A stretch of DNA of 64,000 bases from Planctomycetota bacterium (GTDB taxonomy: Bacteria; Planctomycetota; Phycisphaerae; Sedimentisphaerales; Anaerohalosphaeraceae), in the NCBI GenBank assembly GCA_019456225.1, contig VRUI01000004.1:1-64000 (forward strand), given 5' to 3'. How positions within the stretch are numbered: position 1 is the stretch's first letter; the number at the start of each line of letters is the position of its first letter. Shown here one piece after another: positions 5,935 to 26,205 of this stretch. The position numbers and the translations under genes were made by a program. The notes under the pieces were generated by a model. The model did not search any database. It had not been told where the DNA came from and saw only the letters and a program-made list of their open reading frames with translations.

Positions 5935-6390
5935 TTATTTATCCGAACTCATAGTTTGTTGGTACTTTTTTTCGATCCCTTGAACAAATTCGTTCCGTTC
6001 CTCATCATCAGGGAATACTAACTTCAAGGTTCTATTTAAGTCAGATTGAATGATCTTGTGAACTCTTTCCTGTTGTTTACCGCCGATTTGATTTCTTGTT
6101 TTGGCTTTCAAGTAATTAATTTCTATGAGACTTTTGGCGACCTCTTGAGTAGCTTGTTCTACGAGGTTTGCCTTATCCAATGCCTCCTTGGCAGCAATAT
6201 GATCTTGTTTTGCCGCCACGTATGCTAATATGGCTATAATTACCATAATAACACTAAGCGCGAGTGCGCCATGTGAAGTTTGTGTGTACTGTCGAAAGCA
6301 GTTCTGAAATCGACCACATTTATTGCAAATAGTTGCCTTGTCATTAATTTTTTCACAACAGTATCGACATTCCTTCATATTTTCGCCCAT
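5935..6390 (-). CDS. Zinc-ribbon membrane protein, unknown function
   Basis: A 151-aa protein I do not recognise. Residues 8-25 form a four-cysteine zinc ribbon (C-x2-C ... C-x2-C: CRYC and CNKC). A single transmembrane segment follows at about 42-60 (ALSVIMVIIAILAYVAA), then a charged helical, coiled-coil-like region and a lysine-rich end. The start is well supported: AAGGAG 6 nt before the ATG. It is the last of three same-strand unassigned genes (5935-7913), spaced 138 and 58 nt, which looks like a small accessory group. A sensor or adaptor role at the membrane is possible but only a guess. Confidence 0.65.
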   Translation of the reverse strand: MGENMKECRYCCEKINDKATICNKCGRFQNCFRQYTQTSHGALALSVIMVIIAILAYVAAKQDHIAAKEALDKANLVEQATQEVAKSLIEINYLKAKTRNQIGGKQQERVHKIIQSDLNRTLKLVFPDDEERNEFVQGIEKKYQQTMSSDK

Positions 6391-6528: not shown

Positions 6529-7239
6529 TCAAGCCGATTCTTTCGGTTCGGCGATCCAATCCATCAGCCATTGAGCCATTTCAGTAGCTCTAAACAATTC
6601 CATGGCACCGCCACTGTCAGCGTATCCCCCTATACCCGCGTCATGTAACAATCCTTTGGCGATAAGTTCAGAACAGGCCATCTTAAGAACTGCAATATGA
6701 AGTTCAGGGAAATAGGGACTGATGTCTGTCGGGCCATTACTTATTCCTTCATAGTAATTTGTAAGCAATATAATGCGTTGATTATTATAAGCTTCGCATT
6801 TAGGTGCCTTTAATGCTTCTTGTAATATTTTTATGTGCATGTCTGTCAAATCGGCTAGTAAACGGCAAGCGGTTTCTGCATCATCCCACACGTGATCGTT
6901 TACAACTTGATTGGTTATAAGATTAGCAAAGTACTTTCTTTTTTCTTCTGAGCGAGTCTTAATAACATCATTAAATACCTGCATCATTAGGTCATGCAAA
7001 GGTTCAGATGGTTCAATATTAATTGATTCTTCTATTCGTTTTAAACGTGCATCCAATTCTATAATGAAGTGTTGAAATCTTTTTTGCTGATATGGTTCTC
7101 CTAGAAGTGATAATAGTTTATCTAATGCGCCACCAAGTGGATTTGAAAGCTGAATCGCTGTCCTAAGCAAAGACATGTCAGAATAGCTAGCCGAAGCTTT
7201 AGTTATAATGCCTGCCTTATCTTTTTTATTTTCTTTCAT
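6529..7239 (-). CDS. Unrecognised 236-aa soluble protein
   Basis: No family assigned. The sequence is mostly alpha-helical and charged. Residues ~30-75 (SNPLGGALDKLLSLLGEPYQ and an amphipathic helix after it) suggest an N-terminal helical domain; the C-terminal half is acidic with scattered cysteines. There is no signal peptide or clear membrane segment. AAGGAT sits 3-8 nt before the ATG. It lies between a HEPN-like gene and a zinc-ribbon membrane protein on the same strand, a pattern seen in accessory or defence islands, but nothing in its own sequence proves that role. Confidence 0.6.
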   Translation of the reverse strand: MKENKKDKAGIITKASASYSDMSLLRTAIQLSNPLGGALDKLLSLLGEPYQQKRFQHFIIELDARLKRIEESINIEPSEPLHDLMMQVFNDVIKTRSEEKRKYFANLITNQVVNDHVWDDAETACRLLADLTDMHIKILQEALKAPKCEAYNNQRIILLTNYYEGISNGPTDISPYFPELHIAVLKMACSELIAKGLLHDAGIGGYADSGGAMELFRATEMAQWLMDWIAEPKESA

Positions 7240-7297: not shown

Positions 7298-7840
7298 CTA
7301 TATTTTTTCAAGAATTCTCTCTACTATCTCTTCGCTTTTTATAACAACATTTGAAATCAAATCCTCTCCTATCATCAAATAATCATCTTTAGTTGTTATC
7401 ATATTAAAATTACCGTTTTTAGCATATTTTTCGACAGCCTCAATTGCGTCTTTCAGTTGATTCAGAAATTTTGAACCAGAAATCCTTCCTCCATTGTGGG
7501 CCACACAGTTTCTTATCCGTATATAATGAGAGAAAAGTTTGACATCAGTGTCATTTAGTTCTATATCAAAGTTAGTTTTTAGGAGGTCAATGTTTTTATC
7601 AAGCCAATTTCCTTTCCCCTTTTCTCCTTTTTCCTTATTTTTAGAATCCGGCACATTTTCTTTTGTAATGGCAGCTATCACATGCTCTGTTAGCGAACAA
7701 AATGCAATTAGAAATGAGCTATTCAGAACATTTCTGTACGGAAATTCAATCTCACGCAGATATTCTTTGTATTGTTGCTCATCTCCACTTTCGCAAAATC
7801 CTTTCCACTCTTCTGAAAATGTCGCATCAAGACTTTCCAT
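7298..7840 (-). CDS. HEPN-like protein (5' end frameshifted)
   Basis: Helical protein with R110-N-C-V-A-H115, the R-x4-H signature of HEPN domains, many of which are RNases in toxin-antitoxin or abortive-infection systems. The coordinates given are the unbroken part from the first in-frame Met. Coding sequence clearly continues upstream (WEYFSKRLETIRNVYLEC) to a run of ten A residues at 7895-7904. Before that run, ATG at 7913 with AGGAT just upstream starts M-N-S-K-K-K in a frame that would join perfectly if the run had nine A. So the native gene probably spans 7298-7913 and is broken by one base. No partner nucleotidyltransferase is seen nearby. HEPN assignment rests on one motif and the helical pattern. 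Confidence 0.6.
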   Translation of the reverse strand: MESLDATFSEEWKGFCESGDEQQYKEYLREIEFPYRNVLNSSFLIAFCSLTEHVIAAITKENVPDSKNKEKGEKGKGNWLDKNIDLLKTNFDIELNDTDVKLFSHYIRIRNCVAHNGGRISGSKFLNQLKDAIEAVEKYAKNGNFNMITTKDDYLMIGEDLISNVVIKSEEIVERILEKI

Positions 7841-8073: not shown

Positions 8074-8181
8074 TTATTTATTCTTCTTTTCCTTCTTCAA
8101 CTTTCGTTTTTCCTTTGGATTAAGATTTGCTTTTTTCTGGCTTTCTTTTTTACCTTTACTCTTTTTGCCGCCGTCGCCCAT
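8074..8181 (-). CDS. Small lysine-rich protein, 35 aa
   Basis: A short frame with ATG at 8181, AAAGGA 8 nt upstream and TAA at 8074-8076. The product begins MGDGGKKSKGKKE and contains NPKEKRKLKKEKKNK at its end; about half of the residues are Lys or Arg. The good ribosome binding site and strongly biased composition support it as a real gene. Such tiny basic proteins may bind nucleic acid, but the function is unknown. It stands alone between the HEPN-like gene and the repeat island. Confidence 0.6.
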   Translation of the reverse strand: MGDGGKKSKGKKESQKKANLNPKEKRKLKKEKKNK

Positions 8182-8279: not shown

Positions 8280-8364
8280 TTTCCTCTTACGGCCTAACGG
8301 GATTCACACTCTAAGCTTCCATTTGGGGGAATGATACGGGGAATATGTGAAAAAGTCAAACAGA
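8280..8364. repeat. 85-bp dispersed repeat, copy 1
   Basis: This stretch is nearly the same as 9875-9959, in the same orientation. Differences are confined to a few bases (for example GGGATTCAC versus GGAATTTCC). Shared core words include CTCTTACGGCCTAACGG, CTCTAAGCTTCCATTTG and GATACGGGGAATATGTG. No open frame or terminal inverted repeat is evident. Confidence 0.85.
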
Positions 8365-8401
8365 TTCCTGGGCGAGGGGAAAACAATTACGAATTACTAA
8401 C

Positions 8402-8490
8402 TCAAACTGACCTATTGGTCAGTTTGAAATGAATAATGATTATTGTATAATGTATAATGAATGATTCGGCCTGACGGCCGAGGCAATTTT
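8402..8490 (+). repeat. Composite double-hairpin element, copy A
   Basis: A near-perfect palindrome TCAAACTGACC-TATT-GGTCAGTTTGA (8402-8427), then about 38 bp of A/T-rich spacer (ATGAATAATGATTATTG), then a second hairpin TCGGCC-TGAC-GGCCGA (8466-8481) followed by GGCAATTTTA. The same arrangement occurs at 22331-22416 (reverse) and 38693-38769, with a half copy at 24016-24026. It behaves like a REP-type dispersed element. Confidence 0.85.
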
Positions 8491-8570
8491 ATTAAAAAAC
8501 AGAAGCTGTATAACTTCTTTAATTTAACAGGCTTACGTTGCTTTTCGAGCTAATTTCGGTCAGTCACAGC

Positions 8571-8585: not shown

Positions 8586-8615
8586 CCTACCGAGCTATTG
8601 AAAAGAAAAAAAACA

Positions 8616-8965
8616 CCGCCCCGGCAACGTTAAACCTCTAACGCCACAAAGCCGAGACGGCGACCTGTTGTGTCACGTAAAAAAGGGGAAAGGGATCACC
8701 GCCCCGGCAACGTTAAGGCTTTTAACGCTACAAAGCCGAGACGGCGATCTGCGTATCATAAGTAATCCCTTTCATAGTTGTCTACGCAGCTGCCGCCCCG
8801 GCGACGTTAAACCTCTAACGCCACAAAGCCGAGACGGCGCCCTGTACGTACTACATAATCCCCTTCACAGTTATATACGTGGCTGCCGCCCCCCTAGTGC
8901 ATTTTGCTACCAGTTCATACAAATTGGCATGCCGGAACCGTCGGAGACGGCAGCATTTTTCGATT
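8616..8965. repeat. Tandem array of structured 47-nt units
   Basis: Three well-kept units at 8616-8662, 8699-8746 and 8793-8839, plus a degraded fourth at about 8886-8965. Each unit starts CCGCCCCGGC and ends AAAGCCGAGACGGCG; these ends can pair (CGCC/GGCG and CGGC/GCCG). Inside, CGTTA...TAACG forms another stem; unit 2 changes both sides of the loop yet lengthens the stem to CGTTAA/TTAACG. The second and third spacers (46 nt each) share the loop core ATCCC...TTCA...AGTT but have different closing stems (CTGCGTA/TACGCAG and TACGTA/TATACGT). An open frame through the repeats is an artefact. Confidence 0.75.
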
Positions 8966-9094
8966 TATTATTTATGATTGATTATTTATTATTGCTTTTG
9001 CGCGTACATTCTCCGTGATAGTTTTAGCTCTTGTTTAAGCGAATATTGATCTGGAAGTGCGCAAAGAAAAAAGATACAAAGGGCACTGCCAAAC

Positions 9095-9226
9095 ATGCTC
9101 CACCAAGGCCCGACAAGACCTGCACAGAACATGAGGACAGCACCCCTTGTATCCTACGATACAAACGGGGTGCCGTTTTCTCACGACGTTCCTGTGCTCA
9201 AAATTTGTCGGTTTTGGTGGGAACAT
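9095..9226. repeat. Long nested hairpin, MITE- or ncRNA-like
   Basis: The arms pair in order: CCACCAA/TTGGTGG (9100-9106, 9214-9220), CCGACAA/TTGTCGG, GCACAG/CTGTGC, GCACCCC/GGGGTGC and GTATC-CTAC-GATAC at the tip. The result is one long imperfect stem of about 123 nt. A separate small hairpin ATCCGT-AAA-ACGGAT follows at 9225-9239. There is no gene inside. It could be a miniature transposable element or a structured RNA. Confidence 0.7.
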
Positions 9227-9319
9227 CCGTAAAACGGATTCGTAATATTTAATTGTCTGAATTCATAATAGCGATTATTTGGAAAGTTGTCAAGAGAAAA
9301 ATTTTAGAAAGGTTTTTGG

Positions 9320-9438: not shown

Positions 9439-9717
9439 TCAAATTAAAATTTTCATCCTCGGGCCGGTGCTGCTATTAGGATCATTTGATGTAACGTCGC
9501 AGATAGTTACCCTTGTTGCCTTCAGGCCATTTCCTGAATCGAACTGGTCGTACTTAACGGTTACACCATTTCTAAGGCATCTAAATCCTTCGCCGTCGAT
9601 GCAGCTATAATGCACAAAGACATCTTTCCCCTCATCGTTGACTATAAATCCAAATCCCTTTTTTGGGTCAAACCATTTTACTTTACCTTTTTTCATGTCA
9701 TCGTTTTTCTTATCCAT
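9439..9717 (-). CDS. Cold-shock domain protein
   Basis: Single-stranded nucleic-acid-binding protein of the CspA family, an RNA chaperone in the cytoplasm. The cold-shock domain spans about residues 10-75 with [11 protein letters not shown]1 KGFGFI and RNP2-like VFVHYS. Residue order and length fit the family, but there is a short extra N-terminus (MDKKNDD) and a C-terminal tail of about 20 residues. The ATG at 9717 is chosen; a TTG two codons earlier and an ATG eight codons into the chain (just before KKGKVKW) are alternatives and no ribosome binding site decides. It is monocistronic within the repeat island. Confidence 0.88.
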
Positions 9718-9874
9718 AATCAAAATCTTTCATAAATAATAAATTCAAAAGCACCCCCCCCTATATATAAGGCGTCTGTGGGGCGGGTTTCTTAATTGTT
9801 GAGCGGGGTATTTTCGGGCAGATGTCGGTATGTGCTGAATAAAGTTTCCTTTTTGGTGAATATCGCCACGGGCT

Positions 9875-9959
9875 TTTCCTCTTACGGCCTAACGGAATTT
9901 CCACTCTAAGCTTCCATTTGGAGGGATGATACGGGGAATATGTGAAAAAGTCAAACAGA
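9875..9959. repeat. 85-bp dispersed repeat, copy 2
   Basis: Second copy of the sequence at 8280-8364, same orientation. It is followed directly by GGGACCTGGTCC, a short palindrome that resembles the GGTACCTGGTAC phrases elsewhere in the window. Confidence 0.85.
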
Positions 9960-12028: not shown

Positions 12029-12196
12029 GAATTTAGTTTACCTCTGAATTAGGTGTCAAAAAACGTTCAAAAGCGCGCACTTTTACCCAAAAAAAGTCAA
12101 AATATCTGTTTTTTTCGCGTTTTCGTTCAATTAATTTCAATTAATTTCAAAAAAAAACGCCCAAAACCATAGGTGGGAAATATCGAAAATATCCAG
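12029..12196. repeat. 168-bp repeat, copy 1 (inverted pair)
   Basis: The reverse complement of 26038-26205 with scattered mismatches. Shared blocks include CCTCTGAATTA, AAAACGTTCAAAAGCGCGC, AAAATATCTGTTT, TTTCGCGTTTTC and AACGCCCAAAACCA. It contains an internal direct repeat (TTAATTTCAATTAATTTCA). No open frame is evident. Confidence 0.85.
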
Positions 12197-22283: not shown

Positions 22284-22330
22284 CCAGATTCTCCGATCTT
22301 CTAATTACTCAATATTATTCAAAAAACAAA

Positions 22331-22416
22331 ATAGCCTCGCCCATAAGGGCGAATCCTTCATTATACAATAATCATTATTCATTATTCATTTCAAACTGAC
22401 CGATCGGCCAGTTTGA
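22331..22416 (-). repeat. Composite double-hairpin element, copy B
   Basis: Read on the minus strand: TCAAACTGGCC-GATC-GGTCAGTTTGA (22391-22416), A/T-rich spacer with ATGAATAATG and TGATTATTG, then TCGCCC-TTAT-GGGCGA (22337-22352) followed by GGCTATTTT. The second stem has changed from TCGGCC to TCGCCC with the matching change on the other arm, which preserves pairing. It lies between nusA and infB and may act on that transcript. Confidence 0.85.
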
Positions 22417-22419
22417 GTC

Positions 22420-26037: not shown

Positions 26038-26205
26038 CTGGACATTCTCGACATTTCCCACCTGTGGTTTTGGGCGTTATTTTTTGAAATTAATTGAAAT
26101 TAATTGACCGAAAACGCGAAATAAACAGATATTTTGCAATTTTTGAAGATAAATGGCGCGCTTTTGAACGTTTTTTCACCTTTAATTCAGAGGATAACTA
26201 AATTC
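26038..26205. repeat. 168-bp repeat, copy 2 (inverted pair)
   Basis: Inverted partner of 12029-12196. It begins 17 nt after pyrF ends. The following 26206-26467 segment has no supported gene. Confidence 0.85.

Follow-up and report, generated by a model that had tools for sequence, protein, structure and literature searches.

The tandem array of hairpins at positions 8616-8965 of the window (the whole 64,000-nucleotide stretch of DNA that was analysed) is probably the 3' half of an independent, multi-copy, modular, orphan gene for a structured noncoding RNA on the minus strand. The predicted transcript is ~650 nt long (~9258 to 8606, minus) and carries three copies of one hairpin, here called B, in its 3' part. 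As far as the letters can tell, the strand, promoter-like start, structure, modular shuffling and terminal U-tract of this element are all supported; its promoter and terminator are consensus matches.

An earlier note on this DNA had offered two readings of the array, a new noncoding RNA array or a recombination substrate. The first stands in outline, given the excess of structure, the retention of G-U pairs, the promoter and terminator, the occurrence at four loci and the lack of an Rfam match. The second has little support: no integron integrase match exceeds the curated cut-off, and slippage can explain the duplication within the array.

Architecture of the element

Along the minus strand, the order is a promoter-like site, a 5' module (H1), element C, hairpins B3, B2 and B1, and a run of eight U residues. 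The predicted sigma-70-type promoter (TTGACA-17-TATTAT, 9265-9293, minus) is near-consensus, with 11/12 matches, and would start transcription at ~9258. H1 is a long nested hairpin (120 nt; 9100-9220, minus) built from the stems CCACCAA/TTGGTGG, CCGACAA/TTGTCGG and GCACAG/CTGTGC and an apical stem; a second copy was not found elsewhere in this genome.

Two pairing partners are available to bases 9153-9138, the 5' side of H1 and 9088-9073. Pairing with the latter, followed by U6 (9072-9067), gives a terminator-like alternative hairpin (9063-9153, minus) that excludes the apical stem of H1. The competing folds are predicted at -78.0 (H1) versus -70.9 kcal/mol (alternative), and the hairpin beside the U-tract of this module at -48 kcal/mol. 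Such an anatomy resembles a terminator switch and may be regulatory.

Element C (8882-8954, minus) has a 12-bp stem, GCUGCCGUCUCC/GGGGGCGGCAGC, around a 49-nt interior, and its three variable pairs are each retained as G-U. What had been taken for a degraded fourth unit is in fact this distinct hairpin, found intact at two other loci (C138 and C72) with 86-89% identity. The AT-rich linker at 8960-9003 (the ATAAATAATCAATCATAAATAATAAATC region) has matches at 22 further places in the genome. The predicted 3' end, an intrinsic terminator, is the U8 tract at 8606-8613 (minus), directly after B copy 1.

Repeat units and spacers

The three near-identical units described previously are indeed present, at 8616-8668, 8700-8752 and 8793-8845, spaced 84 and 93 nt apart. 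Their structure is also far above chance: the whole predicted minus-strand transcript, a 653-nt stretch, has a predicted fold of -258.5 kcal/mol (z ~ -8). The earlier note had read the hairpin on the plus strand; every unit folds much better on the minus strand (-29.2 versus -18.6, -39.4 versus -27.3, and -36.3 versus -20.8 kcal/mol), because several of the apparent plus-strand mismatches are G-U pairs there.

On the minus strand the unit reads CCGUCUCGGC-UUUGU-GGCGUUA-loop-UAACGUYGCCGGGGCGG, that is, a stem of ~17-22 pairs, G-U pairs included, with a single 5-nt bulge, UUUGU. Bulge and stem are invariant across the eight B copies of this genome, and loop and flanks vary. Copy 3 (8792-8838, minus; model score 81 bits) lies inside a tandem duplication; copy 2 (8688-8773, core 8694-8749, minus; 83 bits) has the outer stem GAAAGGGATTAC/GTGATCCCTTTC; copy 1 (8616-8660, minus; 84 bits, -25.2 kcal/mol) abuts the U-tract and forms the terminator stem.

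The duplication, called by TRF at 8699-8892 (period 93, 2.1 copies; no strand), comprises unit 3 and its spacer, joined at a shared CCGCCCC, and needs only ordinary slippage. Spacers 2 and 3 do share a loop sequence, as had been observed, because of this 93-bp duplication, which accounts for the likeness in place of the proposed selection for hairpins. The stems that close the two spacers, CTGCGTA/TACGCAG and ACGTA/TACGT, occupy non-homologous registers and therefore do not represent covariation. The "covarying spacers" of the earlier note thus give way to a duplication, with no significant covariation.

Folding strength and G-U retention

All four loci that carry B hairpins fold better on the same strand, with sense z-scores of -7.8, -8.1, -5.4 and -5.1 and antisense z-scores, in the same order, of -4.5, -5.7, -2.7 and -1.5. 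Mismatches were then counted in helices found with Watson-Crick pairs only, under a strand-symmetric rule. On the minus strand, in-helix mismatches comprise 27 G-U and one A-C, from copies that are not independent; in shuffled sequences matched for composition, the G-U share is 56-66%.

Counted by hand over distinct alignment columns, helices scoring ≥11 contain 23 G-U against 4 A-C. The corresponding one-sided p-values (0.00016 at even odds, ~0.01 allowing for composition) are indicative only, since the threshold of 11 was set with the figure for all helices, weak ones included, already in view; that figure is only 27:12 (p 0.02), and the test itself was devised after the folds had been seen. 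Strand-specific retention of G-U pairs points to an RNA.

The cores vary too little for classical covariation, which is absent. A covariation test on the B units turned up one pair in which both bases change, the same as for shuffled columns, and none that is significant. Changes within helices are dominated by one-sided, G-U-compatible ones, that pair in B being the single double change.

Related loci in the same genome

The units do recur inside the genome, with eight copies at four loci: three in the window, two each in C138 and C113, and one in C72, whose contig ends within its array copy. A branched domain, D, is common to C113, C138 and C72 and absent from the window locus, and a final hairpin (A) with its U-tract is common to C113 and C138. 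The 5' modules differ (H1 in the window, F in C72, E and others in C113 and C138), each followed by a U-tract; downstream modules are shared among loci while 5' modules are swapped.

At three loci, a scan found promoter-like sequence bordering the structured region on its 5' side (11/12, 11/12 and 10/12), and C138 has TATAAT at the homologous position. At the three loci where the 3' end is assembled, the 3' edge is a strong hairpin with a U-tract (-25, -23 and -24.5 kcal/mol). The predicted RNAs of the other loci measure ~640 to ~990 nt.

Domain D contains an arm with a canonical T-loop (GCAGG-UUCGACC-CCUGC), a possible 7-bp acceptor stem (GAGGCAG/CUGCCUU) and a D-loop-like GAAUGGUAAA. Pair probabilities for T-arm and acceptor are 0.9 and ~1 in C113 and 0.37 and 0.77 in C72; in C138 they fall to an improbable 0.09. 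Neither ARAGORN nor Rfam calls a tRNA or tmRNA, and the C138 copy breaks both the T-loop and the acceptor pairing. The description "tRNA-like" is only a lead.

Distribution beyond this genome

Searches with DNA and covariance models found no relatives among 97 further genomes from the same family and order, nor among 391 others across the phylum; the 38 other family genomes gave none under looser filters, and there were none in viral contigs, phages or plasmids. The search that the earlier note had suggested across the phylum therefore yields no relative outside this genome and no deep conservation. At gathering or permissive thresholds, Rfam 15, including ornate RNAs, riboswitches, tRNA, tmRNA and 6S, matches neither the array nor the 5' module, nor any of the other loci.

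Several candidate matches were set aside. Four viral-contig matches to a 16-nt core are embedded in unrelated sequence, and 17 contig matches to an 18-base core look like chance, the covariance model R1 finding nothing significant there. Weak R1 matches in the relatives G455 and G016/G027 are ordinary GC-rich, terminator-like hairpins. Members of the clade also carry terminator hairpins of the GCACCG/CGGTGC type, and the B stem may in part be no more than a terminator motif of that ordinary sort.

Possible alternatives: terminators or dispersed DNA repeats

These relatives, whose ordinary intergenic terminators have the same type of stem, bring up an alternative that we regard as unlikely: that the array is a set of tandem intrinsic terminators or an intergenic insulator, duplicated by slippage, the RNA itself having no role. 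The recurring arrangement of hairpin then U-tract would fit, as would the origin of the third unit by tandem duplication. A row of terminators, however, does not explain why B2, B3 and C have no directly adjoining U-tract, or why the internal UUUGU bulge is invariant. Moreover, the region is equipped with a promoter-like start of its own and, further upstream, a 120-nt hairpin, and domain D, present at three loci, is unlike a terminator.

Distinctly unlikely, in our judgement, are dispersed noncoding repeats (MITE-like, or REP/BIME-like DNA palindromes) on mobile or defence islands, with hairpins that function as DNA. Strand-specific G-U retention speaks against them, as a DNA cruciform would not require G-U pairs to be kept on just one strand. 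Eight copies at four loci of a single genome, two of them beside defence genes, are what such repeats might look like, and the end of the C72 contig inside one copy and the partial array in the window agree with this; but fixed element ends are absent (C113 and C138 share flanks, C72 starts mid-element), no transposase was recognised by eye among neighbouring ORFs, and no integron integrase passes the cut-off. REP/BIME and other intergenic palindromic repeats are likewise multi-copy palindromes between genes; the window element differs in its long single-strand architecture, promoter-like start and strand-specific G-U pairs.

Gene neighbourhood

The window element lies between a cold-shock protein gene (9439-9723, minus) and a 35-aa lysine-rich ORF (8074-8181, minus). 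Beyond the latter is a HEPN-like gene (7298-7840, minus) with an RNCVAH motif and a PADLOC match to RTasHEPN (E 6.5e-6); Pfam gives it no match, its HEPN-type matches are weak, and it was not found among 58 relatives. It is the first of a three-gene cluster (7298-7840, 6529-7239 and 5935-6390, minus).

The C113 neighbourhood holds a type I restriction system with PrrC; this PrrC-like anticodon nuclease beside the restriction system (L037 1495-6876) is ~5 kb from the array. C72 is near a SIR2-HerA pair and a HEPN-nucleotidyltransferase gene, and inspection of the listed ORFs at C138 found no defence gene. Two of the four loci adjoin defence genes, and no neighbour is common to all four that would point to a functional partner.

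It is very improbable that the repeats form the RNA antitoxin of a type III-like toxin-antitoxin system, or of one resembling AbiF, in which the HEPN-like gene would be the toxin. The order of promoter, repeats, terminator and HEPN-like (RNCVAH) ORF downstream on the same strand does resemble the published layout of type III systems, with promoter, repeats, terminator and toxin gene (PMC8860590), and its AbiF counterpart (PMC12373285). However, the HEPN-like gene begins 766 bp past the U-tract, with another promoter-like repeat and the 35-aa ORF in between; the ORFs read at C113 and C138 include no comparable gene downstream (the downstream side of C72 is off the contig); and no Rfam family matches, abiF (RF03085) included. 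The candidate was rejected as a type III system because no toxin gene lies directly downstream and the downstream ORF is only weakly HEPN-type, where a ToxN/AbiQ-family endoribonuclease would be expected.

Comparison with known systems

Protein-titrating small RNAs of the CsrB/RsmZ type carry one hairpin in several copies per RNA, with GGA in the loops. The window RNA similarly repeats one hairpin within one RNA; unlike them it has no constant loop GGA, its constant part being the UUUGU bulge, and no Rfam match. GOLLD, ROOL and OLE are likewise large and highly structured, each with its own gene (here predicted, ~650 nt in the window), and differ from the window RNA, which has neither an Rfam match nor deep covariation. 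Known large ornate ncRNA families form multimers with conserved contacts (PMC12286853).

The type III antitoxin RNAs ToxI and CptI share with the window element a promoter, tandem repeats and a terminator; they are known pseudoknots, whereas the window units are 84-93 nt apart, predicted to be plain hairpins, and have no conserved toxin gene downstream. YrlA, a bacterial Y RNA, has a tRNA-like module to which domain D, found at the three loci outside the window, possibly corresponds. Unlike the setting of YrlA, this genome (assembly 95.8% complete) encodes no TROVE/Ro protein: a match to PF05731 (TROVE, Ro60/Rsr) is absent, and a Y RNA was rejected.

The earlier note's view that this is not a CRISPR is correct by anatomy, with units 84 and 93 nt apart and spacers related by duplication; the array lacks the short identical repeats and the unrelated, evenly sized spacers of a CRISPR, cas genes having been sought by eye in the ORF list only. 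An integron attC array was rejected as well (TIGR02249 has 12 matches in the genome, 0 over the curated cut-off), and so was a retron or DRT ncRNA, the three RVT_1 matches being on contigs C46, C33 and C23 and none at the array loci.

Possible function and significance

For the structured RNA that we favour, we tentatively suggest a repeated binding site combined with a gated leader. Transcription would start at the TTGACA/TATTAT promoter and would pass or stop at the 5' module, according to which of two mutually exclusive structures forms, the stable hairpin or the terminator-like hairpin with its U-tract. The full-length RNA would end at the last B hairpin and U8. Its B hairpins, with their invariant UUUGU bulge, could each bind some protein or RNA, giving one to three sites per molecule, and this stable, structured RNA might act in trans, probably by titration or as a scaffold.

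As a long shot, the loci might represent an undescribed modular RNA family, often beside defence genes, in which swappable, sensor-like leaders with a terminator switch precede a body of UUUGU-bulged hairpins, and the tRNA-like domain at three loci is a possible decoy for nearby tRNA- or RNA-cutting effectors (HEPN, PrrC-type).

If transcribed, the element would belong to a family of large structured RNAs that is not yet listed, from a little-studied group of bacteria, with four modular copies in one genome, and would exemplify how structured RNAs diversify via module swaps. The defence genes beside two of the four loci are a concrete place to seek its function. Should these be merely terminators, the case is a warning against taking repeated hairpins for new RNA classes.

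Other repeats and gene fragments

An 85-bp direct repeat (94%) at 8280-8364 and 9875-9959 of the window, with a promoter-like TTGACT-17-TATCAT, lies upstream of the 35-aa lysine-rich ORF and of the cold-shock gene, and looks like a duplicated promoter or leader. Decayed 3' gene fragments (...LVEYRDI*) lie beside the C138 array (L007 327-530 and 1907-2100; L008 4593-4745), as does the fragment NGWLFWKYKDKNGNLAELGGLRK*, and related DNA is found beside C113. The window also holds an inverted dispersed repeat of 169 bp, 88% identical, at 12029-12196 and 26038-26205, and another dispersed pair at 8400-8493 and 22325-22418.
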